Origin: Bacteroidota bacterium
Lineage (GTDB): Bacteria > Bacteroidota > Bacteroidia > B-17B0 > Aurantibacillaceae
NCBI GenBank assembly: GCA_013697245.1
Contig: JACCXH010000061.1
Coordinates: forward strand, 1-58,928
Reading direction: 5' to 3'
DNA: 58,928 nt
Part shown: positions 1-21,061 of the stretch, piece by piece
Position numbering within the stretch: position 1 is the stretch's first letter
Layout of the letters: every line of letters begins with the position of its first letter
The notes under the pieces: model-generated
Database searches by the model: none
What the model was told of the DNA's origin: nothing
Seen by the model: only the letters and a program-made list of their open reading frames with translations
Position numbers and translations under genes: made by a program

Positions 1-2
1 TT

Positions 3-2696: not shown

Positions 2697-2698
2697 AA

Positions 2699-5600
2699 AT
2701 GAAGTACACCTGCATTAACATACAAGGAAATTTTATTTCGGAAGAAGTACTCCAAAAAGTGGAGACTGCTTCTGCCGATTTTCAAAAAGCTACCGATTTT
2801 GGTTTTGAACCCGGCACTAACCTGCGCGATGAAATTGAATACAGTTGGAGCCGGATTAAATTAGACTGGAAACATTTTAACGAAAAATCCAACTCGCTTC
2901 CTGCTTCCGATCAATACGGAACAACACTTACGAGAAAATGGATGGAAAACTTTTTTTCCTCCATTGGGTTTGATTTAAGTAAACAAAAAGAAGCGTTAAA
3001 AGGTGAGAATAATCAGACTTATACTATAAGCCATACGTCCAATAATAATGGGCTTCCGGCACAGATTGTTGGTTTTTATGACCCTCTTCATCCTGAAAAA
3101 AACACGCTCGATATAAAATCAAGCGGTGGCACATCGCGTCTTTCACCTCATGGTACAGTTCAGGAATATTTGAATGTTACCGAACATATTTATGGATTTG
3201 CTACCAACGGAATGCTATTGCGTTTAATTCGTGATAGCGGGCGTTTGGTAAAACTCACATACGTTGAGTTCGATTTAAAACGAATGCTTGACGAAGACAA
3301 GTACAGTGAGTTTACAATCCTGTATCGTCTTATCCACAGCAGTCGTTTTAATAACGATGCGAGTATTATTGAAAAATATTACCAAGAGAGTATTGAAACA
3401 GGAAATCGGATACGCGATGGTTTAAGCGAAGCGGTTAAGGAATCAATGCAAGCATTAGGGAATGGTTTTTTACAGCATCCGGCAAATGAAGTTTTGCGTG
3501 AAAAACTAAAAAGCAAAACAATTACCCCTAAACAGTATTACGATCAATTACGCAGATTGGTTTACCGCCTATTATTTTTAATGGTAACCGAGGAACGTGA
3601 TTTAATTTACGATCCTAACGAACTGAAAGGTGATGTAATAAATAAAAAACAAATTTACCTGCGCTTTTATAGTATTGCCCGATTAAGAAATTTATCGGAG
3701 AACCGATACTTGTATGAAAAAGAATTTACCGATTTGTGGCAAGGGCTTCTGAACACCTTCTTTTTATTTGAAGCCGGAGGCAATGGAAATAAAATAGGAA
3801 TTAAGCCATTGGATGGAGATTTATTTAGTGAAACAGCTTTAAAAGACATTAATGGTGCTGAAATTGGTAATCACGTATTGCTTGAATGCATTCGTAACCT
3901 TAACGAGTTTCAGGATAAGCAAACAAAAATGCTCGTGTCAATTAATTACCGCTCTTTGGATGTGGAAGAGTTAGGCTCGGTATATGAAAGCTTATTGGAA
4001 TTACATCCGGTAATTGAACATTTAGACTCTTTAAATCCGGCAAATGTTCATTTTACATTTCATGGTGGTACGGAGCGTAAAACTACAGGTTCTTACTACA
4101 CGCGCCCGGATTTAGTGAATGAATTAATTAAATCAGCGCTTATTCCAGTAATTGAAGAACGTATAAAAGAAGCAGGAACAGAAAAGAAAGCACAATTAAA
4201 TACTTTGTTAAAATTAAAAGTCTGTGATACGGCTGCCGGGAGTGGACATATGATGTTAGCGGCAGCACGCACAATTGCTTGGTATATGGCACGTATTGAT
4301 AGTGGAGAGGAAAATCCACCGCCATCAATTTATCGCCATTGGTTGCGTCAAGCAATACAGCATTGTGTTTATGCAGTAGATATGAACCCTGATGCCGTTG
4401 AATTATGTAAACTGGCTTTGTGGTTGGAGGGACACAATAGTGGTAAACCATTAAGCTTTCTAGATCATAAAATACGTTGCGGTAATAGTTTGGTGGGGGT
4501 TGCTGATTTAGCCACATTAAAAAAAGGAATACCTGATGAAGCGTTTAATGCCGTTACCGGAGATGATAAAGCCGTTTGCCAATCACTAAAAAAAGCAAAC
4601 AGGGATTTTCATAAAACCCAACAGATCACCCTTGATTTTGAAACTGGAGGTGTAGATTTTATAGAAGAACAGAAAGATTTTGCAAGTATGTTTGCTGAGT
4701 TAGATAGCATCAATCAAGATACCTTAGAAGAAGTAAAAATGATTGGCAAAAAACACAGCGAGCTAAAATATAATCCAAAACTACTAAAAGATAAAAATGC
4801 ATGTGATTTATATACAGCTGCATTTTTCTATACTTATTCAAAAATTGACGATCCTTCTGCACCCTCAAGTCAAAGGTTAAAATCATATTTACAATCAGCT
4901 GGAGGGGTGGAAGCTCGAGCAATTGGAATGGCCAATGTCCTAAGTTTAGAAAATAATTATTTCCATTGGCCGTTGGAATTTCCTGATGTATTTGAGCAAG
5001 GCGGATTTGATGTAGTTCTTGGAAATCCACCTTGGGAGAGAATTAAAATGCAGGAAGAAGAATTTTTTTCAACGAAAGAGCCAAAGATTGCACTGGTTTC
5101 TAATAAATCTCAGAGAAAAAAAATGATTGCGGAATTGGTAGATAATAATCCAAGCCTTCACGATGAATTTAATTTTAGCAAACATAATTCAGAAGCACTT
5201 GGAAAATTTATTAGAAATTGCGGAAGGTATCCTTTAACCTCAGATGGTGATATTAACACGTATGCTATATTTTCTGAATTAGTAAGAAATGTAATTAATA
5301 TAAAAGGAACTTGTGGTGTAATTGTTCCAACTGGTATAGCAACCGATGATTCTAATAAAAATTATTTCGGAGAGCTTATAAAGAAAAGCAATCTTATTAG
5401 TTTTTATGATTTTGAAAATAAAAATGGATTGTTTCAAGATGTTGATTCACATATGCGATTCAGTCTGATTACCTTGAGTAAAGGCAAGACAACATCCATT
5501 CCAAAGTTTGCATTCTTCTTGAAGGATGTGTCGGAGTTGGCTATTGATAGTAGGATAATTAAAATACCAATTGGAACATTTGTACTTTTTAATCCAAACA

Positions 5601-6694
5601 CTTTAACAACACCATCATTTTGGTCTGCAACTGACTTAGAACTGGCAAAAAAAATATATCATTCTCATTCTATTCTTGAAAATGAAATAAGTGGTAAAAA
5701 TGAGTGGAAGGTTCATTTTAATCGAATGTTCGATATGTCAAATGACAGCAAACATTTTAAAAGTGAGTCGCCTAATCTAATGAGACTTTATGAAGCTAAG
5801 ATGTTTCAATTGTATAATCATAGATTTGCAAGCTCTGGCCAACCTAAAGGGGAAAGAAAAATAAGGGGATCATCTGAGCACTTTGAAAGCCAACAATTAG
5901 AAAATCCTGAAGAAATTTCCATTTCAAGATACTATGTAGAGCCTGACGAAGTGGATAAAAGGGTTGATGCAAACCATAAGTGGTTGATGGCCTATCGAAA
6001 TATAACAAGTGTGGTTTCAAATGAACGCACTGTAATTGTTTCAATTATCCCTCGAGTTGGTGTTGGAAATAGCGCCCCTGTTATACTTTCAGATAATGCA
6101 GATCCGCTTCTAAAAAGCTGTTTATATGGCAACTTTTGTTCGCTAATATTTGATTATTTGGCTCAACAAAAAATTGGCGGTGTAAATTTTAATTATTTTA
6201 TTTTTAAACAGATTCCTGTATTATCTCCTTCGATTTATAGTGAATTAATAAAACAGAGGATCGTACCCAAAATTTTAGAACTTACTTACACAGCATGGGA
6301 TATTAAATCTTACGCAGATGACATATGGATTAATTCCAATGATGAATACAGAAGCCTCTACAAAAAGCAATGGGAAGAAAATAATAATGCTACAGGAGGA
6401 CATAAAACGCCACCCCCTAATTGGAGTCAAATAAACATTGACGAGTTTCCTTTACCACCATTCAAATGGAATGATGAAAGAAGGGCACTATTGCGTTCAG
6501 AACTGGATGCTATTTATGCAATGCTTTACGGTTTAACTATAAATGAGTTAATTTTTATTTTAGATCCTAAAAGTGTTTATGGCGAGACGTTTCCGGGAGA
6601 AACATTCAGGGTTATGAAAGAAAAAGAAATTAAAAAGTTTGGAGAATACCGCACCAAGCGCTTGGTGTTGGAGGCATGGGAAAAATTAAAATAA
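2699..6694 (+). CDS. drmMI: N6-adenine DNA methyltransferase, DrmMI-like
   Basis: A 1331-residue class I SAM-dependent DNA methylase. The AdoMet motif I is CDTAAGSGH (509-517), preceded by GSYYTRPDLVNEL, a sequence typical of type I/IIG methylase cores. The catalytic motif IV is NPPW at 776-779 within DVVLGNPPWERIKM, which marks amino-methylation of adenine. The long insert between motifs I and IV and the long C-terminal part (likely target recognition, 850-1250) fit DrmMI of class 1 DISARM and Eco57I-like enzymes. No PD-(D/E)XK nuclease motif stands out at the N-terminus. It follows the helicase by 2 bases and must be co-translated with it. Expected role: modify host DNA so that the system spares self. 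A plain type IIG-like methylase is the alternative. Confidence 0.75.
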   Translation: MKYTCINIQGNFISEEVLQKVETASADFQKATDFGFEPGTNLRDEIEYSWSRIKLDWKHFNEKSNSLPASDQYGTTLTRKWMENFFSSIGFDLSKQKEALKGENNQTYTISHTSNNNGLPAQIVGFYDPLHPEKNTLDIKSSGGTSRLSPHGTVQEYLNVTEHIYGFATNGMLLRLIRDSGRLVKLTYVEFDLKRMLDEDKYSEFTILYRLIHSSRFNNDASIIEKYYQESIETGNRIRDGLSEAVKESMQALGNGFLQHPANEVLREKLKSKTITPKQYYDQLRRLVYRLLFLMVTEERDLIYDPNELKGDVINKKQIYLRFYSIARLRNLSENRYLYEKEFTDLWQGLLNTFFLFEAGGNGNKIGIKPLDGDLFSETALKDINGAEIGNHVLLECIRNLNEFQDKQTKMLVSINYRSLDVEELGSVYESLLELHPVIEHLDSLNPANVHFTFHGGTERKTTGSYYTRPDLVNELIKSALIPVIEERIKEAGTEKKAQLNTLLKLKVCDTAAGSGHMMLAAARTIAWYMARIDSGEENPPPSIYRHWLRQAIQHCVYAVDMNPDAVELCKLALWLEGHNSGKPLSFLDHKIRCGNSLVGVADLATLKKGIPDEAFNAVTGDDKAVCQSLKKANRDFHKTQQITLDFETGGVDFIEEQKDFASMFAELDSINQDTLEEVKMIGKKHSELKYNPKLLKDKNACDLYTAAFFYTYSKIDDPSAPSSQRLKSYLQSAGGVEARAIGMANVLSLENNYFHWPLEFPDVFEQGGFDVVLGNPPWERIKMQEEEFFSTKEPKIALVSNKSQRKKMIAELVDNNPSLHDEFNFSKHNSEALGKFIRNCGRYPLTSDGDINTYAIFSELVRNVINIKGTCGVIVPTGIATDDSNKNYFGELIKKSNLISFYDFENKNGLFQDVDSHMRFSLITLSKGKTTSIPKFAFFLKDVSELAIDSRIIKIPIGTFVLFNPNTLTTPSFWSATDLELAKKIYHSHSILENEISGKNEWKVHFNRMFDMSNDSKHFKSESPNLMRLYEAKMFQLYNHRFASSGQPKGERKIRGSSEHFESQQLENPEEISISRYYVEPDEVDKRVDANHKWLMAYRNITSVVSNERTVIVSIIPRVGVGNSAPVILSDNADPLLKSCLYGNFCSLIFDYLAQQKIGGVNFNYFIFKQIPVLSPSIYSELIKQRIVPKILELTYTAWDIKSYADDIWINSNDEYRSLYKKQWEENNNATGGHKTPPPNWSQINIDEFPLPPFKWNDERRALLRSELDAIYAMLYGLTINELIFILDPKSVYGETFPGETFRVMKEKEIKKFGEYRTKRLVLEAWEKLK

Positions 6695-6697
6695 ATC

Positions 6698-7657
6698 ATG
6701 TGTTTCTTTAAAAGAAAAAAAATGCGATTAGATATAAGATCGGAATATTCGAGGCTTTTAAGTTCAAAGGACTTACAGGTAATGATTGAATCATATAAAA
6801 TCATTACGGATACTGGTTTCAGTATATTTTATGAACATGGCAAAGAAGGCACTAAAACATCTTGGGATTATGATGGTAATTTACTTTACCAAATGACAAT
6901 GCTTAAATGTTTATCAGTTTTAAAGTTAGCTGAACCAATAAATTACACGAACGATGTTGATGGCACTTCATTAAAAAATACATATGATCCATTCTCTGTG
7001 TACAATTTAGTGCGCGCTCAATACGAAGCCTTTTGCAATTTTAACAACATTTATATTCAGTCTAAGTCCACGCAGGAAATTGAACTGAAATATTATCTTT
7101 GGGTATTAAGCGGACTTAATTATCGTCAACGATTTAAAGTGGAAGCAAAAGAAAATGTTGAAAAAAAAGCACACGAGAAAAAAGAGATAGACGATATTAT
7201 AGCCACATTGGAATTGAACACCTGTTATATTCAATTGGAAGACCAATCAAAGAAAAATATTCAGGATGGAATTAAAAAAAGAGATTGGCAATACAAAATA
7301 GAAGGAAATAAAGCATCTAAAATTGCTTGGCATGAAATGATGACAAATGCGGGAACAAATGATATGCTCGAAGGTCAATACTCGTTTCTATCCTTAAACA
7401 CTCACCCTTCAAATGTTTCTGTTTTCCAATTTGGTGCTATGTATAATGAAAATGAACAAGAATCTTTTACAAGGATGGCAATGCAACTTTCAAAAATTCT
7501 TGTTGCGCTCTCAATTCGAGATTACTGCGTTTATTTCCCAACGTGTATGAAGACATTTAATAAATTACCGAGTATGCACCAAATGCTTATCAATACTTAC
7601 AATCGGATGTTCCGTGATGAATCTTATGTTTTGAATAATCATGGGGAAGACTTTTAA
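6698..7657 (+). CDS. Unrecognised protein in the helicase-methylase operon
   Basis: A soluble, mostly helical protein of 319 residues, or 311 if the ATG at 6722 is used; neither start has a Shine-Dalgarno. There is no signal peptide or membrane segment. A central Lys/Glu-rich stretch (about 145-170) may be a short coiled coil. YNLVRAQYEAFCNFNN (about 100) and YSFLSLNTHPSNVSVFQ (about 228) look like the conserved Arg/Glu and His-containing helices seen in DUF5677-type proteins, but this is only a resemblance. The gene lies 3 bases after the methylase and 10 before the TcmP-like gene, so it is part of the operon. It could be an effector or accessory factor. Function unknown. Confidence 0.7.
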   Translation: MCFFKRKKMRLDIRSEYSRLLSSKDLQVMIESYKIITDTGFSIFYEHGKEGTKTSWDYDGNLLYQMTMLKCLSVLKLAEPINYTNDVDGTSLKNTYDPFSVYNLVRAQYEAFCNFNNIYIQSKSTQEIELKYYLWVLSGLNYRQRFKVEAKENVEKKAHEKKEIDDIIATLELNTCYIQLEDQSKKNIQDGIKKRDWQYKIEGNKASKIAWHEMMTNAGTNDMLEGQYSFLSLNTHPSNVSVFQFGAMYNENEQESFTRMAMQLSKILVALSIRDYCVYFPTCMKTFNKLPSMHQMLINTYNRMFRDESYVLNNHGEDF

Positions 7658-7667
7658 ATAAATTATT

Positions 7668-8771
7668 ATGAGTAAAGACATTCACGAAAAACCTTTTGAT
7701 GAGGCCACTCTTGTAAAGCTCTCTATATTTAGAGATTATACACGTGAGTGGTTACCTGTATTTATTGCTGCTAAGCAAATTTATTGGAACACATTAAATA
7801 TAGTTGATTTCTTTGCAGGCCCCGGTAATGACATTAAAAATACGCCAGGTTCTCCTCAAATTATTTTATCAGAGTTAACTACGCACTTGCCTTTGATACG
7901 GTCAAAAAATTTAAAAGTGAACATCTATTTCAATGAGTTTAAGAAGAAAAAATATGATGAGCTTGTAAAATTTATTGAAGAAAATAAAAAAGAATTTCCG
8001 GAATTCAATTTTGAAATAACAAATTTGGATTTTAAAGTCGCTTATCAAAATTGGTATCCAAAAATCAATAAAAAAGACTGCGCTAACTTATTGTTCTTCG
8101 ATCAAAATGGGATAAAACATATTGATGAATCTGTTTTTCAACAAATAATAGCACTTAAAAGTACTGATTTTCTATTTTTCGTATCCTCGGCTCACGCTCG
8201 AAGATTTAGTGAGCATGAGAATATAAAGCAATATCTAAAACTGAATAAAGCTGATATTGACAGTACTCCCTATTATCATATTCATAAATTGGTTCAGGAA
8301 TATTATAAAGGACTTATTCCAAAAGGGAAAGAGTATTATTTAGGTAGATTTTCTCTCCGAAAAGATAGCGGTAATATTTACGGTTTAATTTTCGGTTCAG
8401 GACACGTGTTGGGGATGGAAAAATTTTTAAAGTCTTGTTGGAAAATTGATCCGGAAAGAGGAGAAGCGAATTATGATATTGATAAGGATGCAATTATGCC
8501 CGGTCAAATTGATATGTTTACCGGTGAGGTAAAGAAACCAAAAAAGAAAGAAATCTTTGAAAGTAACCTTGAAAAGTACATTTTGGATAAAACTTTAACT
8601 AATGACAAACAAATTTATTTGCACACAGTAACAAATGGTTTTTTGGCAAGTCATGCTTCAGAAGTTTTAAAGAAAATGCAGAAAGATAAAAAGATTAAAA
8701 TTTTTAAAGGCACGCTTAATTCCAGCGTTTGTAAGAAAGGCATTGCTACAATAAGTATAGAAATAATTTAA
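7668..8771 (+). CDS. tcmP: Three-Cys-motif partner protein TcmP-like
   Basis: 367 residues. The N-terminal part has the family layout KLSIFRDYTREWLPVF then VDFFAGPGN and PGSPQIIL, in which FAGPG resembles a Rossmann-type AdoMet-binding loop; NLLFFDQNG (about 140) could be the second strand of such a fold. A C-terminal Lys-rich winged-helix-like region follows (about 300-367). TcmP proteins are defined by standing next to a DUF5131 (Gp37/Gp68) three-Cys protein, and that is the case here: the TAA of this gene overlaps the ATG of the next by one base. Biochemical role not known to me; the pair is common on mobile elements. Family call firm, methyltransferase-like activity is inference. Confidence 0.85.
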   Translation: MSKDIHEKPFDEATLVKLSIFRDYTREWLPVFIAAKQIYWNTLNIVDFFAGPGNDIKNTPGSPQIILSELTTHLPLIRSKNLKVNIYFNEFKKKKYDELVKFIEENKKEFPEFNFEITNLDFKVAYQNWYPKINKKDCANLLFFDQNGIKHIDESVFQQIIALKSTDFLFFVSSAHARRFSEHENIKQYLKLNKADIDSTPYYHIHKLVQEYYKGLIPKGKEYYLGRFSLRKDSGNIYGLIFGSGHVLGMEKFLKSCWKIDPERGEANYDIDKDAIMPGQIDMFTGEVKKPKKKEIFESNLEKYILDKTLTNDKQIYLHTVTNGFLASHASEVLKKMQKDKKIKIFKGTLNSSVCKKGIATISIEII

Positions 8772-9523
8772 TGGCAGGATCGAGTATAGAGTGGACAGAA
8801 ATGACGTGGAATCCTACAACAGGATGCACAAAAATATCGGCAGGATGTAAATTCTGTTATGCAGAAGTTATGTCTAAGCGATTACATGCAATGGGAGTAG
8901 AAAAATATAAAGATATTTTCAAGCTTCGAATTCATCCGGGCGAACTGAATACACCGTACCGATGGAAGAAACCGAGAATCGTTTTTGTAAACTCCATGAG
9001 CGATATGTTTCACAAAGATGTCCCTCTTGAGTTTATTCAAAAGGTTTTCAAGGTAATGAATGATAATCCTCAGCATACCTTTCAAGTACTTACAAAACGT
9101 GCGGATTTGGTTGCTAAATACGATAAGAAATTAACTTGGACTAAAAACATATGGATGGGCACATCCGTAGAAGATGAACGGGTAATAAAACGGATTGATT
9201 ATCTCCGGAAAACGAGTGCAAAAGTTAAGTTCCTTTCGTTAGAGCCATTGATTGGCGACTTGCCGAGCCTTAACTTAAAAAAAATAGATTGGGTTATAGT
9301 TGGAGGAGAATCCGGCCATAAAGCCCGGCCAATAAAAAAAGAATGGATTATTGAAATAAAAAAGAAGTGCGATAAAGCGAAAGTTCCTTTCTTTTTTAAG
9401 CAATGGGGTAAAAAACAATTTAACCCCGATCCGTTTGATTTAACCATTTCCGCTCAGAATCCACAACACGCGAAGGGCGGATGCAGTTTAAATGGAAAAG
9501 TATATAGGGATATGCCAAAATAA
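8771..9523 (+). CDS. DUF5131 (phage Gp37/Gp68) three-Cys-motif protein, radical-SAM-like
   Basis: 250 residues. The start MAGSSIEWTEMTWNPTTGC is characteristic of the family. Cysteines C19, C26 and C29 form CX6CX2C, which resembles an iron-sulfur cluster loop of a radical SAM protein but is not the canonical CX3CX2C. Further conserved segments are VFVNSMSDMFH, QVLTKRADL, WMGTSVED, FLSLEPLIGD and WVIVGGESG, strands expected of a TIM-barrel-like fold. It overlaps the TcmP-like gene by one base (TAATG), so the two are translationally coupled. The substrate is unknown. A modification enzyme acting on nucleic acid is plausible from its position in a defence-type island, but not shown by the sequence. 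Confidence 0.85.
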   Translation: MAGSSIEWTEMTWNPTTGCTKISAGCKFCYAEVMSKRLHAMGVEKYKDIFKLRIHPGELNTPYRWKKPRIVFVNSMSDMFHKDVPLEFIQKVFKVMNDNPQHTFQVLTKRADLVAKYDKKLTWTKNIWMGTSVEDERVIKRIDYLRKTSAKVKFLSLEPLIGDLPSLNLKKIDWVIVGGESGHKARPIKKEWIIEIKKKCDKAKVPFFFKQWGKKQFNPDPFDLTISAQNPQHAKGGCSLNGKVYRDMPK

Positions 9524-9628
9524 TTTTAATTGAATTTATAATACATGAGTAGAAGGTAATGATGGATTTCTTTTTGAATTTAATCAAAGTTGGAATGGGC
9601 GATTAAAAAAACTTTTGATAAACTTCAG

Positions 9629-9841
9629 TTAATTCAAATAAATTACCTCCGGAAGACCAAGTTTTTCAAAAATGATTCCTACTTGTTTTGGATTATAAAA
9701 ATGCCCCATTCGCTCCCCAATTTCTTTTTCAAATGGTCTTAGCCATTTATTGAGTGTTTTTTTGCTGATTTCATATAATCCGGCCATTTCATTCACCGAG
9801 TATGTTTTAACATGTATTTTTCGTGCTGTATCCTGTTTCAT
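9629..9841 (-). CDS. Small MerR/excisionase-like DNA-binding protein
   Basis: 70 residues. TYSVNEMAGLYEISKKTLNK (about 13-32) reads as a helix-turn-helix of the MerR or excisionase kind, followed by a basic wing region and a hydrophobic end. No signal peptide or membrane part. It points against the operon to its left, converging on the DUF5131 gene. Its size and fold fit an excisionase or small regulator of the island. Its start lies inside the end of the next upstream small frame (35-base overlap). Confidence 0.6.
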   Translation of the reverse strand: MKQDTARKIHVKTYSVNEMAGLYEISKKTLNKWLRPFEKEIGERMGHFYNPKQVGIIFEKLGLPEVIYLN

Positions 9842-9992
9842 TTTTAAATAATTTTTTGATAAGCCCTATTTTTAAGCCTCTTTTAATCAAAAAATTAGGA
9901 TGGCTACTATAATTATTTACATTCAAAAGCCTATTGATTGATTTTACGGATCTCCCCGAAATGCTTTTCCAATCCTCCTGCGTAATCCCCAT
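9807..9992 (-). CDS. Small basic protein, possible HTH
   Basis: 61 residues, basic. ITQEDWKSISGRSVKSINRL (3-22) could form a helix-turn-helix. The last 12 codons overlap the start of the excisionase-like gene in another frame. No clear ribosome binding site. It may be a real partner of the neighbouring small gene or a chance frame; coding evidence is weak because it is short. Confidence 0.4.
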   Translation of the reverse strand: MGITQEDWKSISGRSVKSINRLLNVNNYSSHPNFLIKRGLKIGLIKKLFKNETGYSTKNTC

Positions 9993-10107
9993 AAAATTCG
10001 GCCTTTACCGGAAAGAAAGATCCTATCCCCTATATCGCCCCCATATCTCCCCGGAATAATACAGTAGTTTTTTCAAGCAAAAATCAATCAGAATTCAAAT
10101 GGCAAAT

Positions 10108-10626
10108 TTATTCCGGCAAAGAAAAGATGTAACCGTTTTGTCCTTTTTGTTTTGTGCCGATAATGCGACCGTATTTAAGCGCCTTAGTTAAGTGAGCAGA
10201 TAAACCTTTTTGATGATCGCCTGTTAATGTGCGAAACATCATATCGTTTTTTAAAAGTATATCTACGATTTCTGATGAACGGAGCGGTCTTCCGGCTGCT
10301 TTTAAAACAAAAACAATCTTATCAATCCAAGTAGCATTAATGTTATAAGTGTTTCCAAGCTTCAAATCAGCAACACGTTTGTATTCTTCAGCAACAACTT
10401 CGTAATGCGCTAATTTTTTAATTAGTTCTTCAATGCGTTTTTTATATTCTTCAATTGTTTCTTTATGGCTTTCACCGGCCTCACGCTTGGATTGATACAA
10501 ATTGGTTAGCTTATCCATCAATTCCTTATCACGTTCCTGTAATTGCATCACTTTATTTATCAATTCGCCTTTACTTGATTGTTCAAGTACCAGTCTTTCT
10601 AAATATTTTATCGCTAAATCCTTCAT
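10108..10626 (-). CDS. Coiled-coil protein with C-terminal winged helix
   Basis: 172 residues in two parts. Residues 1-90 are a highly charged heptad-like helix (ELINKVMQLQERDKELMDKL and onward), probably an oligomerising coiled coil. Residues 97-172 hold a compact domain with AAGRPLRSSEIVDILL, SAHLTKALKYGRII and GQNGYIFSLPE, which reads as a winged-helix DNA-binding fold. The gene is divergent from the recombinase operon, and the four 22-base repeats at 10702-10789 lie 75 bases upstream of its start. It is therefore a candidate binder of those repeats. Family not recognised. No Shine-Dalgarno. Confidence 0.65.
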   Translation of the reverse strand: MKDLAIKYLERLVLEQSSKGELINKVMQLQERDKELMDKLTNLYQSKREAGESHKETIEEYKKRIEELIKKLAHYEVVAEEYKRVADLKLGNTYNINATWIDKIVFVLKAAGRPLRSSEIVDILLKNDMMFRTLTGDHQKGLSAHLTKALKYGRIIGTKQKGQNGYIFSLPE

Positions 10627-10701
10627 TTCGTCATCAAATTACTTTGTTTTTATCTTTAAACTATACAAAACCCGTGTGTTTCCAATCGCTCCGCAATTTT
10701 G

Positions 10702-10789
10702 TCTTATAGAGTTCTTAATATCACATCACACTGTTCTCACATATCTCTTATAATGTTCTTAATATTGTCTTATATAGTTCTTATGGCAA
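10702..10789 (+). repeat. Four tandem 22-base iteron-like repeats
   Basis: Units start at 10702, 10724, 10746 and 10768. Three share TCTTATANNGTTCTTA; the second is degenerate but keeps GTTCT in register. GTTCT occurs at 10711, 10733, 10755 and 10777, exactly 22 bases apart, or about two helical turns. Such spacing places all sites on one face of the DNA and is typical of replication iterons or cooperative operators. Seen directly; the binder is not known. Confidence 0.75.
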
Positions 10790-10954
10790 AGGTAATCATC
10801 CCCAATTAATCCCACAATAGTTTCAATTGATTTTGTATCAATATTTGCTTATTACTGACTTATTTAGTTGATTATCAATATAAATATTTAACTCAGTGAT
10901 TTACCGACTTTTAGCAATTATTTACGAGTATGCTCAAAAACTACTCAATTATTG

Positions 10955-10987
10955 TTTGGAAGTTTAAAAACAATTGTGTTACATTTG
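10955..10987 (+). promoter_or_regulatory. Bacteroidota-type promoter of the recombinase operon
   Basis: A TTTG (-33 element) at 10955-10958 and TACATTTG, matching TAnnTTTG (-7 element), at 10980-10987 are separated by 21 bases. This is the housekeeping promoter form of Bacteroidota, located about 50 bases upstream of the MerR-like gene. Confidence 0.6.
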
Positions 10988-11028
10988 TGTATAATAAAGA
11001 ATAAACAAAAATCAATTATTAATTAAAG

Positions 11029-11034
11029 AGGAGG
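11029..11034 (+). promoter_or_regulatory. Strong ribosome binding site AGGAGG
   Basis: AGGAGG four bases before the ATG at 11039. The next two genes of the operon have the same sequence (12031-12036 and 12232-12237). Chromosomal genes in this window and the island's own helicase operon lack such sites. Confidence 0.8.
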
Positions 11035-11038
11035 AAGC

Positions 11039-12031
11039 ATGATTTCAGTAAAATTAGAAGAGTTTATAGATACCAAGAGCCTTGATAAATTGGCGGAGTT
11101 GTATGAATTACTTAACGAAGAAAAATTAAGTGCAAAAGATACCGGAGTAAATTATAGAGTTATAAGCCATTGGGATGATAAAGGCATTATTCGGTTTTCA
11201 AGAGAAAACAAAGAAGCAAATCGCAAATTTAGCTTCGTTGATTTTATGTGGATAAAAGTAGTGAATGAGTTACGCTCTTTCGGTATTCAAATACCAATGA
11301 TAAAAAAAATAGCCGATGATATTTACGAGCCTCTACCCATGAAAGAAATGATAATGCATTTTGCAGACTGCATGGATGAAGTAGTAAAAGATTATGAAGC
11401 AGATGGCAAAGAAGAATTTTTAAATTTTTTTAAATCGGGAGAATATAAAACAGCAGATTACGATTCGCTACCCTTTAGCTTTAGTTATTTGCACATATTA
11501 ATTACGGAGGCTATTGCGACACGCAAATCGGTTTCCTTAATTGTGTTTAATGATGGCGAGTGGTTTCCTTTTATAAAAGAGAACGAACACTTGTATCCTA
11601 AAGAGCTACTTTATAAAAAAGAATTTAGTTCGCAAGTAAGAGTAAATATTACCGAATTGATTTTCAAATTCATTGTTGAAGATTATTTAATTGAATACCT
11701 CGATGGCTTGCACCTATTTACTCCGCAAGAAAGAAAATTACTATACTATATAAAGGAAGGGGATTACAAAAAAGTGTTTGTGATTTTTAAATCTAAAAAA
11801 CAAGAGCCACTTGAAATAGTTAAAAGTAAAACAGCACAGGAAGAGCTTATTCGCATACTACGAGAAAAAGAATATCGAGAATTTATTTTAATAGATAAGA
11901 AAAACAATGAGTTTAGGAAACGGGATACCGATAAGGAAGAACCAAAACCTTTAAAAGAAAGAAAAATTCTTGTTAAGAATGATGACCCAAATTCCAAGAG
12001 AAAATTTAAAGTAATAACCGTTAAGGAATAA
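11039..12031 (+). CDS. MerR-like DNA-binding regulator of the recombinase operon
   Basis: 330 residues. Residues 30-105 form a MerR-type helix-turn-helix: GVNYRVISHWDDKGIIRFS, then RKFSFVDFMWIKVVNELRSF and IPMIKKI. The rest has no family I recognise; it is mixed alpha/beta and ends in a Lys/Arg-rich tail (about 285-330) suited to DNA binding. It is the first gene of the operon with the 80-residue protein and the serine recombinase, so it probably controls integration or excision, possibly by binding the 22-base repeats upstream. Start chosen from the AGGAGG site. Confidence 0.75.
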   Translation: MISVKLEEFIDTKSLDKLAELYELLNEEKLSAKDTGVNYRVISHWDDKGIIRFSRENKEANRKFSFVDFMWIKVVNELRSFGIQIPMIKKIADDIYEPLPMKEMIMHFADCMDEVVKDYEADGKEEFLNFFKSGEYKTADYDSLPFSFSYLHILITEAIATRKSVSLIVFNDGEWFPFIKENEHLYPKELLYKKEFSSQVRVNITELIFKFIVEDYLIEYLDGLHLFTPQERKLLYYIKEGDYKKVFVIFKSKKQEPLEIVKSKTAQEELIRILREKEYREFILIDKKNNEFRKRDTDKEEPKPLKERKILVKNDDPNSKRKFKVITVKE

Positions 12032-12040
12032 GGAGGTTAT

Positions 12041-12283
12041 ATGGCGGAGAAGAAGGAACACAAGCGATTGACTATTGCCGAACTTAGGAACTGTAAAGGC
12101 TTTGAAAATTATTCGGATGAACAGGCGGAAGCAACGATTAAGTCATTAGAGAAATTATCAATACTATTTTATGGCTTATACATGAAGCAAAAACAACAAA
12201 AATTATCATTGATAAAAAAAGAAAATAAAAAAGGAGGTACAGATGAAAGAGAAACCAAAAGTGGAAAACGAGATGCTGCTTAA
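12041..12283 (+). CDS. Small conserved-type protein preceding the serine recombinase
   Basis: 80 residues, charged, soluble. LTIAELRNCKGFENYSDEQA followed by a predicted amphipathic helix is the kind of small protein often found directly before serine recombinases in Bacteroidota elements. AGGAGG lies four bases before its ATG. The last 41 bases overlap the recombinase start in another frame, pointing to translational coupling. A role in recombination directionality is possible but not shown. Confidence 0.65.
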   Translation: MAEKKEHKRLTIAELRNCKGFENYSDEQAEATIKSLEKLSILFYGLYMKQKQQKLSLIKKENKKGGTDERETKSGKRDAA

Positions 12284-13964
12284 AAAATTTGCTAAAGGCA
12301 AAGGAAAAGAAGAGCTGGAAATCGGTATTCAAAATTGCGTTATCTATACAAGGGTAAGTTCAAAAGAGCAAATGGATACCAACCAAAGTTTAGAGTGGCA
12401 GAAAAAATATTGCGTTGAATACGCTATTAAAAATCAATTAAACATTAAAGGTTATTTTGGTGGGACTTATGAAAGTGCAAAGAGTGATGAACGAAAAGAA
12501 TTTACTCGGATGCTTAAGTTCGTTAAACTAAGCAGAGAAAAAATATCGTTCATTTTAGTATATAGCCTTGACCGTTTTAGTAGAACTGGAGATAGCGCTA
12601 TTTTTATTTCGAGCGAGCTAAAGAAAACAGGCGTAAATATTATGGCTGTTACGCAACCAATAGACACTAATTCTCACGCAGGAGCATTACAACAAAACAT
12701 TCAATTCATCTTTAGTAAATACGACAACGACTTACGAAGGCAGAAAACAATTGATGGTATGCGTGAAAAATTATTGCGTGGCGAATGGATTGGAAATGCA
12801 CCAACTGGTTATTCATTTGTAAAAGGGACAGCAACTCAAACAATAATCATCAATGAAAAAGGCGAAGCCATGAAGCAAGCCTTTATATGGCGAGCTAACG
12901 GATTGACTTATGAGCAAATTATAGAAAAGCTAAAACCTCTTGGCGTTATTATGCCGAAGCAAACATTAACAGGTATTTTCTCCAATCCTTTTTACTGCGG
13001 ATTTATGTCGCATAATTTATTGAGTGGCGAAGTAATAAAAGGAAAACATCCGGCATTAATTGACGAGGATTTATTTTTACGAGCCAACGCACTAAAGAAA
13101 ACGGATGGCTTCAAAGTCAACAAGGCAAATGATAACCTGCCATTAAAGGTCTTTGTTAAAGATGCTGAAACAGGCATCCCTTTTACAGGCTATATCGTAA
13201 AAAAGAAAAAGCTTTATTATTATAAGGTAAATAAGATTGGCATTAAGATTAACCGAAGTGCCAATATGATGCACGAAAAGTTTAGAGAGTTTTTGGGCGA
13301 TTATACGATAAATTCCGCCCACGTTGAGCCTTTACAGATACAATTGCGCTATACGTGGGATAACCTAACAGAAAGCAACACAGGCGAGAAAAAAGCCCTT
13401 TCCTTGAAATTAAATGAGGTTGAAGAAGAGTACTATAATTTAAGGAAACGCCATGCCATTGGTAAGGTAACTATGGATATTTATGAGGAGTTTTCGGAGG
13501 AAATGAAGGTTCGAAAAAAGAAGCTTTTAGAGGAATTTGAAAAGCTCGACCAAAAATTATCGAACCCAAAAGAACTGATACATTTTACAACAAAATTAAC
13601 CGCCAATCTCGCTCCTGTTTGGGATTCTGGCGATTATTACGAAAAGCAAATTTTTCAAAATACCATATTTCCTGCCGGTTTGGGTTATGATTCAAAAAAG
13701 GAGCATTATCGAACCACAGAAATAAATGAAGTGATTGGCTATGTTGCCCGATTATCAAGGAGCTTAGAAGAAATAAAAAAACCGGACTTCTCTAAATTTG
13801 AAGAGAAGTCCGGCTTAGTACCCAGGAGGAGACTCGAACTCCCACACCTTGCGGCATACGCACCTCAAGCGTACTTGTATACCATTCCAACACCTGGGCG
13901 GATATACTTCACGTTAACAAACGTAACAAACACTAGAGTTTATAGCTACAATAGCTATATTTAA
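12243..13964 (+). CDS. Large serine recombinase (integrase) of the island
   Basis: 573 residues. The resolvase domain (about 30-180) has VIYTRVSSKEQ with the nucleophilic serine and VYSLDRFSRTG with the catalytic arginines. The recombinase domain follows (NAPTGYSFVKG, GIFSNPFYCGFM; about 195-295). The usual zinc-ribbon region (about 299-350: GIPFTGYIVKKKKLYYYKVN, then NRSANMMHEKF) has lost all its cysteines. A coiled-coil stretch follows (about 380-440). Codons from about 514 lie on the tRNA terminator hairpin and then antisense to tRNA-Leu, so the last 60 or so residues are probably supplied by the target site. Start set by AAGGAGG before the ATG. It should integrate and excise the island. 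Confidence 0.88.
   Translation: MKEKPKVENEMLLKKFAKGKGKEELEIGIQNCVIYTRVSSKEQMDTNQSLEWQKKYCVEYAIKNQLNIKGYFGGTYESAKSDERKEFTRMLKFVKLSREKISFILVYSLDRFSRTGDSAIFISSELKKTGVNIMAVTQPIDTNSHAGALQQNIQFIFSKYDNDLRRQKTIDGMREKLLRGEWIGNAPTGYSFVKGTATQTIIINEKGEAMKQAFIWRANGLTYEQIIEKLKPLGVIMPKQTLTGIFSNPFYCGFMSHNLLSGEVIKGKHPALIDEDLFLRANALKKTDGFKVNKANDNLPLKVFVKDAETGIPFTGYIVKKKKLYYYKVNKIGIKINRSANMMHEKFREFLGDYTINSAHVEPLQIQLRYTWDNLTESNTGEKKALSLKLNEVEEEYYNLRKRHAIGKVTMDIYEEFSEEMKVRKKKLLEEFEKLDQKLSNPKELIHFTTKLTANLAPVWDSGDYYEKQIFQNTIFPAGLGYDSKKEHYRTTEINEVIGYVARLSRSLEEIKKPDFSKFEEKSGLVPRRRLELPHLAAYAPQAYLYTIPTPGRIYFTLTNVTNTRVYSYNSYI
13775..13813 (-). terminator. Rho-independent terminator of tRNA-Leu
   Basis: On the minus strand CCGGACTTCTC (13803-13813 complement) pairs with GAGAAGTCCGG over 11 perfect bases with a 10-base loop, followed by seven T. 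It begins five bases after the tRNA 3' end. The same bases encode recombinase residues such as KKPDFSKFEEKSG on the plus strand. Confidence 0.8.
13819..13899 (-). tRNA. tRNA-Leu (anticodon GAG)
   Basis: An 81-base class II tRNA. The acceptor stem is GCCCAGG with CCTGGGT and discriminator A. The D stem is TTG/CAA, the anticodon stem TACGC/GCGTA encloses the loop TTGAGGT (anticodon GAG, reading CUC), the long variable arm is TGCCGCAAGGTGT, and the T arm is GGGAG-TTCGAGT-CTCCT. CCA is not encoded. It marks the boundary between island and conserved chromosome. Confidence 0.93.
13941..13959. repeat. Perfect 8-base inverted repeat upstream of tRNA-Leu
   Basis: TATAGCTA and TAGCTATA separated by CAA, about 40 bases upstream of the tRNA on its own strand. 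Could be a regulatory site or chance in AT-rich DNA. Confidence 0.4.
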
Positions 13965-13992
13965 GGACAAAATTATAAAAATGTGCCGTCTT

Positions 13993-14026
13993 TTTGCGGT
14001 TTTTAAACAATTTATTTATATATTTG
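13993..14026 (+). promoter_or_regulatory. Promoter of rplS
   Basis: TTTG at 13993-13996 and TATATTTG (TAnnTTTG) at 14019-14026 with a 22-base spacer, about 70 bases upstream of the L19 start. Matches the Bacteroidota consensus. Confidence 0.5.
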
Positions 14027-14098
14027 CGTCCCTATTTCAAAGCCGCTGTTTACACTAGGTAAAGTATGCTGGAAATAATAACTTAACTATTTTACAAA

Positions 14099-14467
14099 AT
14101 GAGCCTTTTATTAGACTACGTAAAAAAAACATTAACCAACGAAGTTAAACATCCAAACTTCAAAGCCGGCGATACTATTACTGTATCTTATAAAATTAAA
14201 GAGGGCGAAAAAGAACGTATCCAGCAATTTAACGGTGTTGTAATTCAACGCAAGAACGAAGCAGCAACCGCATCTTTTACAGTTCGTAAGATCAGTAACG
14301 GAGTTGGTGTAGAACGTATCTTTCCAATCGCATCTCCTTTTATTGATAAGATCGAAGTAAACAAAGTAGGTATCGTTCGTCGTGCTAAATTATTTTACAT
14401 TCGCGATCTTACAGGTAAAGCAGCGCGTATCCGCGAAAAGATCCAAAACAAAACCGTTAAAGCTTAA
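14099..14467 (+). CDS. rplS: 50S ribosomal protein L19
   Basis: 122 residues, full length for the family. Recognised by [52 protein letters not shown] and a basic C-terminal tail [20 protein letters not shown]19 sits at the 30S-50S interface. It stands alone here instead of with trmD, rimM and rpsP, and has its own promoter and terminator. There is no Shine-Dalgarno, as usual in Bacteroidota. Confidence 0.98.
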
Positions 14468-14491
14468 GCTTTTATTTTTAAATATTTACCA

Positions 14492-14526
14492 AAGCCGTAT
14501 CAGTTCAAACGATACGGCTTTTTTTA
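14492..14526 (+). terminator. Terminator after rplS
   Basis: AAGCCGTATC (14492-14501) pairs with GATACGGCTT (14511-14520), nine-base loop, followed by T run. Perfect stem of 10. Confidence 0.88.
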
Positions 14527-14580
14527 TGTCTTATGTTTTTAACACATAGAAGAACCAACTAATAATAATTGAACTTTTTT

Positions 14581-14624
14581 TAATGACTTAAAGAACATAG
14601 GTTTCTATGTTCTTTAAGTCATTA
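14581..14624. repeat. Perfect 20-base inverted repeat with 4-base loop
   Basis: TAATGACTTAAAGAACATAG (14581-14600), loop GTTT, then its exact complement (14605-14624). It lies between the rplS terminator and the first POT gene. No T run follows directly, so it is not a normal intrinsic terminator. Perfect pairing over 20 bases suggests a recent or maintained palindrome. Confidence 0.85.
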
Positions 14625-14692
14625 ATCACCCTAAAAGGGGTTGCTTAAGTTAAATTAATATTCTATTTTTAGCCTCTAACTAACAAAAAAAT

Positions 14693-16225
14693 ATGGAACA
14701 GGTTACACAACAAAAAGGACACCCGAAGGGGCTTTACGTTTTATTTGCTACTGAATTTTGGGAAAGATTCAGTTACTATGGAATGCGGGCTATTTTTGTT
14801 TTATACATGACTAAAACATTATTACTTGAAAAATCATTAGCAAGTAATATTTATGGAAGTTACACAGGACTAGTTTACTTAACACCATTAATTGGGGGAT
14901 ATGTAGCAGATAGGTATTGGGGTAACCGCAAATCAATTTTTGTTGGTGGGGTCTTAATGGCGTTGGGCCAATTTTTGATGTTTTTTTCTGCAACATTAGC
15001 TAGTGGCACTGATAAAGGTTTTGCTATAACACTGATGTGGTCTGGACTTGGATTCTTAATATTTGGTAATGGTTTTTTTAAGCCAAACATTTCTACAATG
15101 GTGGGTCAATTATACGAAACAAATGACAGTAGAAAAGATGCCGCATACACGATCTTTTACATGGGAATTAATGCCGGTGCTTTTATTGCCCCTTTAATTT
15201 GTGGATACCTCGGCGAAAATGTTGATTTTAAATGGGGCTTTTTAGCAGCAGGATTTGGAATGATCGTCAGCCTTATAATTTTTTACTTCACTAAAGATAA
15301 ATATGTGATTGCACCCGATGGAACACAATTAGGTGTTGGACCAAATAAAGCGGCAGACACAAATGCCGGAGCGGTAAAAGAAGCTGCCTTTAGTCCATTA
15401 CAATTGCTTATTCTTATTGGCGGTATCATTTCTGCATTTAGCATTATTCATTTTGCTTTTGGAGTAGATGTTTGGGGTTCATTGATATATGGGATGACAC
15501 TTGTTGGTCCATTCGTTATTATTACCGATAAATCGCTTAGTAAAATAGAAAAGGACCGATTATGGGTTATCATCCTGATCATGATATTTGTTATTTTCTT
15601 TTGGATGTGTTTTGAACAAGCAGGAGCTTCATTAACTTTCTTTGCCGAAGAACAAACAAACAGAAATATTTTTGGGTGGATAATGCCAGCAAGTTATTTT
15701 CAAAGTTTTAATGCCGGATTCATTATTATTCTGGCACCAATTATCAGTGCGATGTGGTTACGCTTTTCTAAAAAAGGAATTAATCCCGCCGCACCATATA
15801 AGCAGTCGTTAGGACTTGCATTTCTGGCAGTAGGTTTTTTATTAATTGCTTTTGGTTCTAAAGTAATTCCGGTATCTGGCGCAAGTATTTTCTTTTTAAC
15901 AGGTTTATATTTCCTTCATACGATTGGTGAATTGTTTCTAAGTCCAATTGGATTGAGTATGGTTAATAAATTAACTCCTGCGCGGTTTACGTCTTTAATG
16001 ATGGGTATTTGGTTCTTAGCTATTGCAACGGGTAATAAACTGGCAGGGACAATGAGCTCATTATATCCGGATGCAAAAGCTGCAACCCATCCGAGTATTT
16101 TAGGCTTCGAGATCAACGATCTATTCTCGTATTTTATTTTATTTGTTGTTTTCTCAGGAATTGCTTCTGTGTTATTATTTTTACTTTGTAAAAAATTAGA
16201 GAAGTTGATGCATGGCGTTAAGTAA
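14693..16225 (+). CDS. POT family proton-coupled di/tripeptide transporter
   Basis: 510 residues, about 14 membrane segments. The POT signature EFWERFSYYG is at 21-30, the PTR2 motif GNGFFKPNIST near 125-135 and FFWMCFEQAGASL near 300. The two ExxER acidic residues coupling proton and peptide are present. An inner-membrane symporter importing short peptides. A second POT gene follows about 100 bases downstream after a terminator, so the two are paralogues transcribed separately or with partial read-through. Confidence 0.94.
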   Translation: MEQVTQQKGHPKGLYVLFATEFWERFSYYGMRAIFVLYMTKTLLLEKSLASNIYGSYTGLVYLTPLIGGYVADRYWGNRKSIFVGGVLMALGQFLMFFSATLASGTDKGFAITLMWSGLGFLIFGNGFFKPNISTMVGQLYETNDSRKDAAYTIFYMGINAGAFIAPLICGYLGENVDFKWGFLAAGFGMIVSLIIFYFTKDKYVIAPDGTQLGVGPNKAADTNAGAVKEAAFSPLQLLILIGGIISAFSIIHFAFGVDVWGSLIYGMTLVGPFVIITDKSLSKIEKDRLWVIILIMIFVIFFWMCFEQAGASLTFFAEEQTNRNIFGWIMPASYFQSFNAGFIIILAPIISAMWLRFSKKGINPAAPYKQSLGLAFLAVGFLLIAFGSKVIPVSGASIFFLTGLYFLHTIGELFLSPIGLSMVNKLTPARFTSLMMGIWFLAIATGNKLAGTMSSLYPDAKAATHPSILGFEINDLFSYFILFVVFSGIASVLLFLLCKKLEKLMHGVK

Positions 16226-20512: not shown

Positions 20513-21061
20513 TTAACTCTTCAGTAACGACCATATCTCGGTATCAACGAATTTACCGTTATAAAAATAATTCTCTTTAAAATATGCTTCTTTGTTGAAC
20601 TTAAATTTTTCAAGAAGTTTTCTTGAAACAGCATTATTAGGATTAATATTAGCTTCTATGCTATGCAATTTCATTTTTGTAAAACCGTAATTAATTACTT
20701 TAGGTAAAGCTTCACTTAAAATGCCTTTTTGCCAATGCTCCGGCATAATCATATAACCAATTTCTGCCCGGTGGTTTTCGGGTTCAATTCTATGAAAAGA
20801 AATTGTTCCTAACAGCTCATCTTTTTGTTTTAGCGTAATGGCCCATGAGATCGTTTCGTTATCTTTTGTTTTTTTATTGATCATTTTAATAAATGGCTTC
20901 ATCTCATCTATCGAAACGGCCAAAGGTTTATCAATATATTGCATGGCCTGTTTATTGCTTCTTAAAAGGAATAAGGCATTGGCATCTTTTTTGTTGATCT
21001 CGCGAAGTACTAATCTTTCTGTCTCAAGAATAGGAAAGGGTTTAAAATTAAATTGTAACAT
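20513..21061 (-). CDS. RimJ/RimL-type GNAT acetyltransferase
   Basis: 182 residues. ILETERLVLREINKKDANAL at the start, GTISFHRIEPENHRAEIGYM in the middle, MPEHWQKGILSEALPKVI for acetyl-CoA and SIEANINPNNAVSRKLLEKF near the end are the hallmarks of ribosomal-protein-alanine acetyltransferase relatives. These acetylate N-termini of proteins or small amines. The specific target is unknown. Confidence 0.9.
   Translation of the reverse strand: MLQFNFKPFPILETERLVLREINKKDANALFLLRSNKQAMQYIDKPLAVSIDEMKPFIKMINKKTKDNETISWAITLKQKDELLGTISFHRIEPENHRAEIGYMIMPEHWQKGILSEALPKVINYGFTKMKLHSIEANINPNNAVSRKLLEKFKFNKEAYFKENYFYNGKFVDTEIWSLLKS

Follow-up and report, generated by a model that had tools for sequence, protein, structure and literature searches.

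An attachment site (attP) within the coding sequence of an integrase was described for the Myxococcus phages Mx8 and Mx9, where the gene acquires another 3' end upon integration, by which the Mx8 integrase is modified and not inactivated (PMC6070905, excerpted text). Mx8 is counted among the integrases by the Islander paper, which limits this term to the tyrosine family and, in its excerpted text, gives serine recombinases at tRNA genes as not known (PMC4383910). An attP inside the gene is also found for the archaeal SSV-type suicidal integrases, which are tyrosine recombinases whose gene is split upon integration into inactive halves, and the excerpted text of the same review states that recombinases disrupting their own gene occur only in archaea (PMC8371274). 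For the integration-dependent immunity of mycobacteriophages, attP was reported to reside in the repressor gene, so that integration swaps the 3' end and changes the product (PMC9934374, excerpted text). Among the titles and abstract openings returned by a literature search, no description was found of tRNA-sited serine recombinases with attP in their own gene. It is considered highly probable from the analysis reported here that such an enzyme exists, i.e., a serine recombinase which targets the 3' end of tRNA genes and carries attP in its own gene, whereby integration swaps the enzyme's tail and supplies the tRNA with a terminator.

The window analysed is the entire contig C60 (58,928 bp) of genome G000, which consists of 74 contigs, and the features required for the following are these:

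1-13817, no strand: right-hand part of an integrative element, beginning with base 1 of the contig; its right junction is the tRNA and its left end lies beyond the contig
10108-10626, minus: 172-aa ORF in the right-end block common to the window and genome G003
11039-12031, plus: MerR-type HTH protein upstream of the recombinase (PF13411; matched in 31 of 80 homologous loci)
12041-12283, plus: ORF of 80 aa that overlaps the start of the recombinase gene (with matches in 64 of the 80 homologous loci)
12243-13817, plus: part of the large serine recombinase gene that the element carries, coding for 525 residues (Resolvase PF00239, Recombinase PF07508)
13775-13781, minus: U-tract of the tRNA terminator, an A-run on the plus strand
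13782-13813, minus: 11-bp tRNA terminator hairpin within the recombinase reading frame, element-borne as judged from the stem reading, relatives and a recoding test
13818-13821, no strand: GTAC, the core common to left and right junctions of the Leu family; crossover probably within or next to it
13818-13899, minus: tRNA-Leu(GAG), the target, intact (ARAGORN)
13818-13961, plus: 48 codons which the target adds to the integrated gene (the tRNA in antisense and the following 62 nt)

The recombinase ORF (12243-13964, plus strand, 573 aa) remains open through the terminator hairpin, which is formed by a perfect 11-bp stem (13782-13792 with 13803-13813) and a loop of 10 nt and is preceded by the A-run. 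Read on the minus strand, the hairpin followed by the U-tract constitutes the terminator of tRNA-Leu(GAG). Past the hairpin the recombinase frame continues as VPRRRLELPHLAAYAPQAY..., antisense through the whole tRNA, and its stop codon (13962-13964) is reached 62 nt past the tRNA, with 525 residues encoded before the tRNA and 48 from its first base onward. The next gene (14099-14467) is one which we take to resemble ribosomal protein L19. Rfam at gathering threshold gave no match within window positions 9000-15000, tRNA-Leu(GAG) included. Over positions 10108-13910 the window is 89.9% identical to an element of 25,178 bp in G003, the recombinases being 94% identical. Cargo resembling phage defence was observed at window positions 123-9523, comprising an SNF2 helicase (PADLOC DpdE/DrmD models), an adenine methylase (DrmMI/type IIG models), a DUF5677-like protein, a TcmP protein and a DUF5131 protein (PADLOC PDC-M30A, PDC-M30B). 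A second such element with its own hairpin-coding recombinase end was observed in G000 at tRNA-Met(CAT) (L116, G000:C6:157500-177000), the left end of which was not found by a scan for hairpin plus core.

The recombinase matches PF00239 with 88 bits and PF07508 with 40 bits, both above cut-off, as well as a PHROG integrase family, and its N-terminal resolvase domain is followed by the Recombinase domain as is characteristic of large serine recombinases; both conserved domains lie before the integration junction. These two domains and a putative long coiled coil are shared with the serine integrases of the A118/LI, Bxb1 and phiC31 type, as is a 5-bp arm-motif offset in the Leu and Ser families, whereas the tRNA target, the putative attP in the gene, the terminator in the ORF and the absent cysteines of the window clade set the present enzymes apart. 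The cysteines concerned are the CxxC and CxxxxC pairs at the zinc-ribbon positions of distant relatives (residues about 306-337 in the alignment), and the window clade may possess a zinc-ribbon fold apparently without zinc ligands. A structure model of the joined recombinase of locus L170 (mean pLDDT 70.7, pTM 0.36) predicts two long helices (358-405 and 411-435, a putative coiled coil) and an ordered part ending near residue 505, followed by the hairpin-coded segment and the tail at low confidence, a region within which a further helix (536-548) is predicted. The best PDB matches of this model are serine integrase complexes, with low whole-chain TM-scores of about 0.2. The 80-aa ORF, matched at E <=0.01 in more of the homologous loci than the MerR-type gene, yielded no match in Pfam, NCBIfam, PADLOC or PHROGs and is a candidate directionality factor.

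A scan of named genomes yielded 531 recombinase relatives, presumably from Bacteroidota wherever the title gives the lineage, and the best 80 of the 531 were analysed; two of these loci bear the titles of named strains, Agaribacillus aureus BMA12 (L205) and Flavisolibacter nicotianae X7X (L213). According to the ARAGORN calls, the ORF enters a tRNA in antisense in 65 of these 80 (Leu 35, Met 15, Arg 8, Glu 3 and a single case each of Pro, Ser, Phe and Val), from the start of which 9 to 66 residues (median about 14) are encoded, the stop codon being located inside the tRNA in 45 of the 65 ORFs. Among the other 15, eight (L161, L173, L190, L199, L207, L213, L220, L225) read into tRNA or T-arm-like sequence missed by the rule, as recognized by eye or in another run, four are broken or cut before their end (L182, L187, L194, L215), two possess a different tail and no tRNA (L170, L219) and L234 remains unclassified. 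Antisense-tRNA read-through is a family trait and exceeds chance. The first-pass annotation had read the recombinase frame through the 11-bp hairpin and the entire antisense tRNA, had placed the integration junction at the tRNA and had concluded that the target sets the recombinase length; the first was confirmed for the window, and in the 65 homologues the ORF likewise enters an antisense tRNA, the junction can now be assigned to the tRNA 3' end, and the spread of target-coded residues across the 65 ORFs bears out the third.

Within the genus, recombinase matches at E <=1e-20 were found in 27 of 40 genomes, and a tRNA was called at the recombinase 3' end in 26 of 30 fetched loci, with none at L046, L056, L057 and L058. 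Close relatives (61-94% identity) locate to tRNA-Leu of five anticodons and to tRNA-Met, and more distant ones (about 40% identity) to Ser, Arg, Phe, Val, Met and Leu tRNAs. A class-wide profile search gave matches at E <=1e-60 in 84 of 295 genomes; matches on plasmids and phages were all below 60% identity with none covering 80% of the query, and viral contigs held no recombinase relatives. Two recombinase ORFs (L055 in G009:C47 and L111 in G015:C3) were observed to continue through tRNA-Ser to a total length of more than 1,000 residues, apparently as in-frame fusions with the host gene that follows.

The hairpin was investigated over the last 17 codons before the tRNA, folded on the tRNA strand, for the right ends of the 65 tRNA-entering loci, with 200 synonymous recodings each that followed the gene's own codon usage serving as control. 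The median folding energy was -19.9 kcal/mol versus -6.5 for the recodings, whereby 62 of the 65 right ends beat all but at most two of 200 recodings and 52 beat all 200, the exceptions being L212, L216 and L230; an internal control stretch 300 nt upstream gave a median z of -0.25. The hairpin is stronger than its peptide requires and is under selection. Its stems vary by lineage with both arms altered together (CCGGACTTCTC, GCCGGTCTTATC, CGGGACTTCTC, by eye). Furthermore, the recombinases of L035, L036 and L037, which reside at three different tRNA-Leu genes, have an identical hairpin, and the hairpin therefore travels with the element. The first-pass annotation had regarded the hairpin as the terminator of tRNA-Leu, of which the presence of hairpin and U-tract stands, but it is not the host tRNA's original terminator, as shown by the identical hairpins at different tRNAs and by the terminators of G019 and G017. 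Most probably the recombinase-coded hairpin now terminates transcription of the tRNA. The host's own terminator precedes the left end in G019, and a similar terminator is situated beside the tRNA in G017, which is without the element. In G003 (L137) and G007 (L145) the same hairpin with its neighbouring bases was observed before left ends at two different tRNA-Leu targets, for which reason the sequence before a left end is not always the host terminator; in G029 (L025) a nearly identical one is located next to the tRNA, and this hairpin is perhaps the end of another element family.

The left ends were obtained by scanning long contigs for the core preceded by a terminator, which revealed the layout terminator, then GTACCCTACGGRTYGGAYTTATCGAACC... 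The pattern of a terminator followed by GTACCCTACGGRTYGGAYTTATCGAAC was found at 22 sites distributed over 14 of the 40 genus genomes and its reversed control at none; with one Leu tail as query, 15 of the 40 genomes yielded 21 sites at E values up to 10, many of them in the same places as the pattern sites. In the recombinase frame the left ends of the Leu family read VPYGLDLSNFIDDFQALRILMNSRSWKSLL and relatives; a second family with core TGGT (four strong sites and weaker ones) ends in VVPSGENANKFNEHLELILEFMGVLEHEPELWDQIKQP and relatives, and a third, located at Ser tRNAs, in AGSNLPCSNQITKENPEEKKEAQIQRFLADLRAINHFCKVFRVGQK or AGSCLQLSNFLGDLNAINQFIKIHL. A conserved recombinase C-terminus of 25-46 codons is thus coded at the far end of the element. 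Of 20 distinct Leu left-end sites, 18 have 25 or more open codons in the recombinase frame, versus 0 and 0 in the other frames (a count that omitted only L094, which had picked up the site of L102), with early stops in two of the 20 (L101, L106) and in one of four TGGT left ends (L136). The scan for hairpin plus core found left ends in 4 of 10 elements of a first set and in 1 of 15 and 3 of 9 elements of further sets; those of G018:C46 and G019 were found by other searches, and none was found for G031, G015, G036 and G018:C6. For the window element itself, no left end was found in G000 by the pattern (at most 3 mismatches) or by the tail peptide, which is why its tail was taken from the G003 element (VPYGSDLSNLMRGFQSLRELMNSTRSHFRL), and the natural tail of the window recombinase would resemble it. 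By eye, an inverted repeat CTACGGRTCG...CGACCCGTAG was observed to span about the first 77 left-end bases in G003, G012 and G014 (L091, L096, L090); a mimic of the tRNA at the left end was considered and set aside.

The far end has the short core alone (GTAC or similar) before the element sequence and no displaced tRNA fragment. A left repeat of the tRNA end, which had been proposed to be sought, is confined to this core; the left ends as such were found in relatives. In this respect, and in having no tyrosine integrase, the elements differ from Islander islands and fall outside that class, though the tRNA is kept at full length as in the Islander definition (the intact tRNA of the window, the 65 of 80 homologous loci, the G017 site).

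Should these elements be ordinary tRNA-directed ones, the gene would merely abut its attachment site, the left end would be conserved as attP-arm DNA and the tail would be dispensable. In line with this, codons 1-9 of the Leu left ends, harbouring the motif TTATCGAAC, show little variation, silent sites included (pS 0.155), as expected of a protein-binding site, and codons 7-9 are invariant as DNA in 17 sequences (L094, L095, L101 and L106 omitted), which would fit a binding motif; moreover, integrated genes remain open with arbitrary tails and the folded core is predicted to end near residue 505, before the tail. Past this motif, however, the left ends keep protein and not DNA. In codons 10-22 of the Leu tails pN/pS is 0.47 in the recombinase frame versus 0.83 and 1.79 in the others, a value reached by 1 of 300 column shuffles, for a set of 21 sequences made up of 20 left ends and the L170 joined junction (L094, L095, L101 and L106 were omitted as duplicates or disrupted; G018:C46, L143, L155 as the site of L109, and the L170 junction were added). 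For four TGGT tails it is 0.13 in frame versus 1.32 and 1.68, with L136 kept after skipping the stop codon in it and L133, L134 and L135 omitted as weak matches, and in the Ser tail pair 8 differences are synonymous (over 28 sites) and 6 non-synonymous (over 110 sites). Together with the frame and stop kept at 18 of 20 Leu sites and with the presence of such a tail in each of three lineages with different cores, this renders the ordinary-element explanation quite improbable, and the substitution pattern indicates that the tail evolves as protein.

A protein tail may also act as a stability tag and not as a part of the recombination machinery, in which case the joined form would be short-lived or long-lived and integration would alter the amount of enzyme. 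Precedent for this is given by the mycobacteriophage repressor attP, where integration removes an ssrA-like tag (PMC9934374, excerpted text); there attP resides in the repressor gene, here it would reside in the recombinase gene. The tail ends, however, vary by lineage (SLL, FRL, GQK, IKIHL, IKQP) without a shared AA at the terminus, and the most conserved part is the mid-tail, which makes a tag function unlikely.

The target site was assessed by comparing G019, where an element of 41,984 bp lies between tRNA-Leu(TAA) and the terminator, with the element-free G017. The joined G019 flanks align to G017 with 74% identity over 526 columns and without a gap at the core (...CCTTTTTCATTTATTT/GTACCCGGGACGGG), hence the empty-site comparison that had been called for supports the junction; in G000 the same downstream gene lies about 115 bp from an element-free tRNA-Leu(TAA), which adds synteny support. 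G006 was considered as a clean empty tRNA-Leu(GAG) site and rejected: its identity to the window starts at 13813, but its flank holds left-end relics and a stretch resembling element right-end DNA, and because of these element-like remains the empty-site case rests on G019 versus G017.

According to Rutherford et al., the zinc-domain motif is shifted by 5 bp between attB and attP (PMC3783163, excerpted text). In the present family, counted from the core, the T-loop motif CGAA starts at +18 in 27 of 29 right ends of the GTAC type. Among the Leu left ends it starts at +23 in 20 of 21 rows (with one site present twice, as L094 was kept), and the same holds for two Ser left ends; in the odd row, L100, an earlier motif was matched, and by eye CGAAC is also located at +23. 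The Ser tRNAs of the elements with Ser left ends have CGAA at +18 by eye. The shift is thus found in the Leu and Ser families, as judged on one arm, and was not seen in the TGGT family. Based on this offset, the tRNA is taken to be the attB-type arm and the left end the attP-type arm.

When right and left ends were joined by script, nine of ten elements gave one open frame of 548-594 aa ending in the conserved tail; these nine measure 17.6-42.0 kb, and the integrated recombinase forms of the both-end elements have 532-568 aa. The tenth, in G014, has a broken recombinase that does not join in frame, and a recombinase remnant is found there fused in frame to a left end. A joined form also exists naturally: L170, which has no tRNA, encodes 555 aa ending ...EDKTGLVPYWLKLSNFIEDFSRIRKLKAFMEIKQLA, a tail similar to the Leu tails (E 7e-5), and since its contig has left-end-like sequence at two further places (20764, E 4e-5; 25926, E 0.02) it was read as a tandem array. 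L219 (...YASLVELEGEMSNPLNTDIQVILEVSKVLAI) looks like L170 by layout alone. The contig G327:C13 (L274-L277) was observed to be a probable tandem array, left-end-like sequence being located at 20764, 25926 and 53833, and its inner recombinase to keep the full natural tail inside the chromosome. These joins bear on two claims of the first-pass annotation. That the gene would end differently after excision agrees with the conserved tail obtained in silico, and the same C-terminus encoded far from any tRNA, named there as a refutation, was not seen, L170 having instead a tail of the left-end-coded kind.

Joined frames might also date back to a past gene fission, the left-end piece being a relic and the integrated elements immobile, and indeed decayed left ends or recombinases are found at L101, L106, L136, G014 and L046. 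Such an origin is nonetheless highly improbable, as the tail is under selection, close relatives occupy many tRNAs, the element-free site in G017 is precise and L170 is a joined copy, all of which points to recurrent joining. From the joined frames, attP is placed inside the recombinase gene. As for Mx8, attP would thus lie within the integrase gene and integration would alter the C-terminus, which holds by sequence and for the window itself by way of G003; unlike Mx8, the enzyme is a serine recombinase, many different tRNAs are targeted and the end of the coding sequence doubles as tRNA terminator. An attP inside the gene would likewise be shared with the SSV-type integrases, but here a serine recombinase exchanges only its C-terminal tail and keeps its conserved domains whole, and the family is thus not of the suicidal type.

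The preferred mechanism, tail exchange by integration within the recombinase gene, assumes that in the joined state, i.e., in a circle or at a tandem-array junction, the gene would run through the hairpin and the short core into the conserved tail of 25-46 residues. Integration would then cut the recombinase gene at the core, whereby the conserved tail would remain part of the left end, following the terminator displaced from the host tRNA, and the integrated gene would take its last residues and its stop codon from the target, that is from the antisense tRNA and in some cases from sequence beyond. At the same time the hairpin in the recombinase ORF would become the new terminator of the tRNA. 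The circle is expected from the in-frame joins, and both protein forms would presumably be produced. Loss of the tail would most likely change the enzyme, which may be integration-competent with the tail and altered or excision-biased without it, Mx8 serving as precedent by analogy. A further idea, which is put forward tentatively, is that the tail records the integration state, so that the tailed enzyme would act on attP x attB and the enzyme with a tRNA-coded tail would be held off or be directed towards attL x attR. If so, the reaction itself would flip the direction of the enzyme, replacing or working beside a separate directionality factor, and the inner copies of tandem arrays would regain the full enzyme and could re-mobilise their neighbours.

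How directionality is controlled is a central question in work on serine integrases and in their application as genome tools, and tailed and tail-swapped forms of one enzyme seem to be offered here by nature, set by the reaction itself. As the recombinase of an integrated genome possesses a target-coded C-terminus, cloning it from there gives the altered form. The family documents serine recombinases at many tRNA genes, and its coding sequence is under selection both as protein and as terminator. If the proposed mechanism holds true, it would represent a self-editing large serine integrase, the coding sequence of which also evolves as a tRNA terminator.
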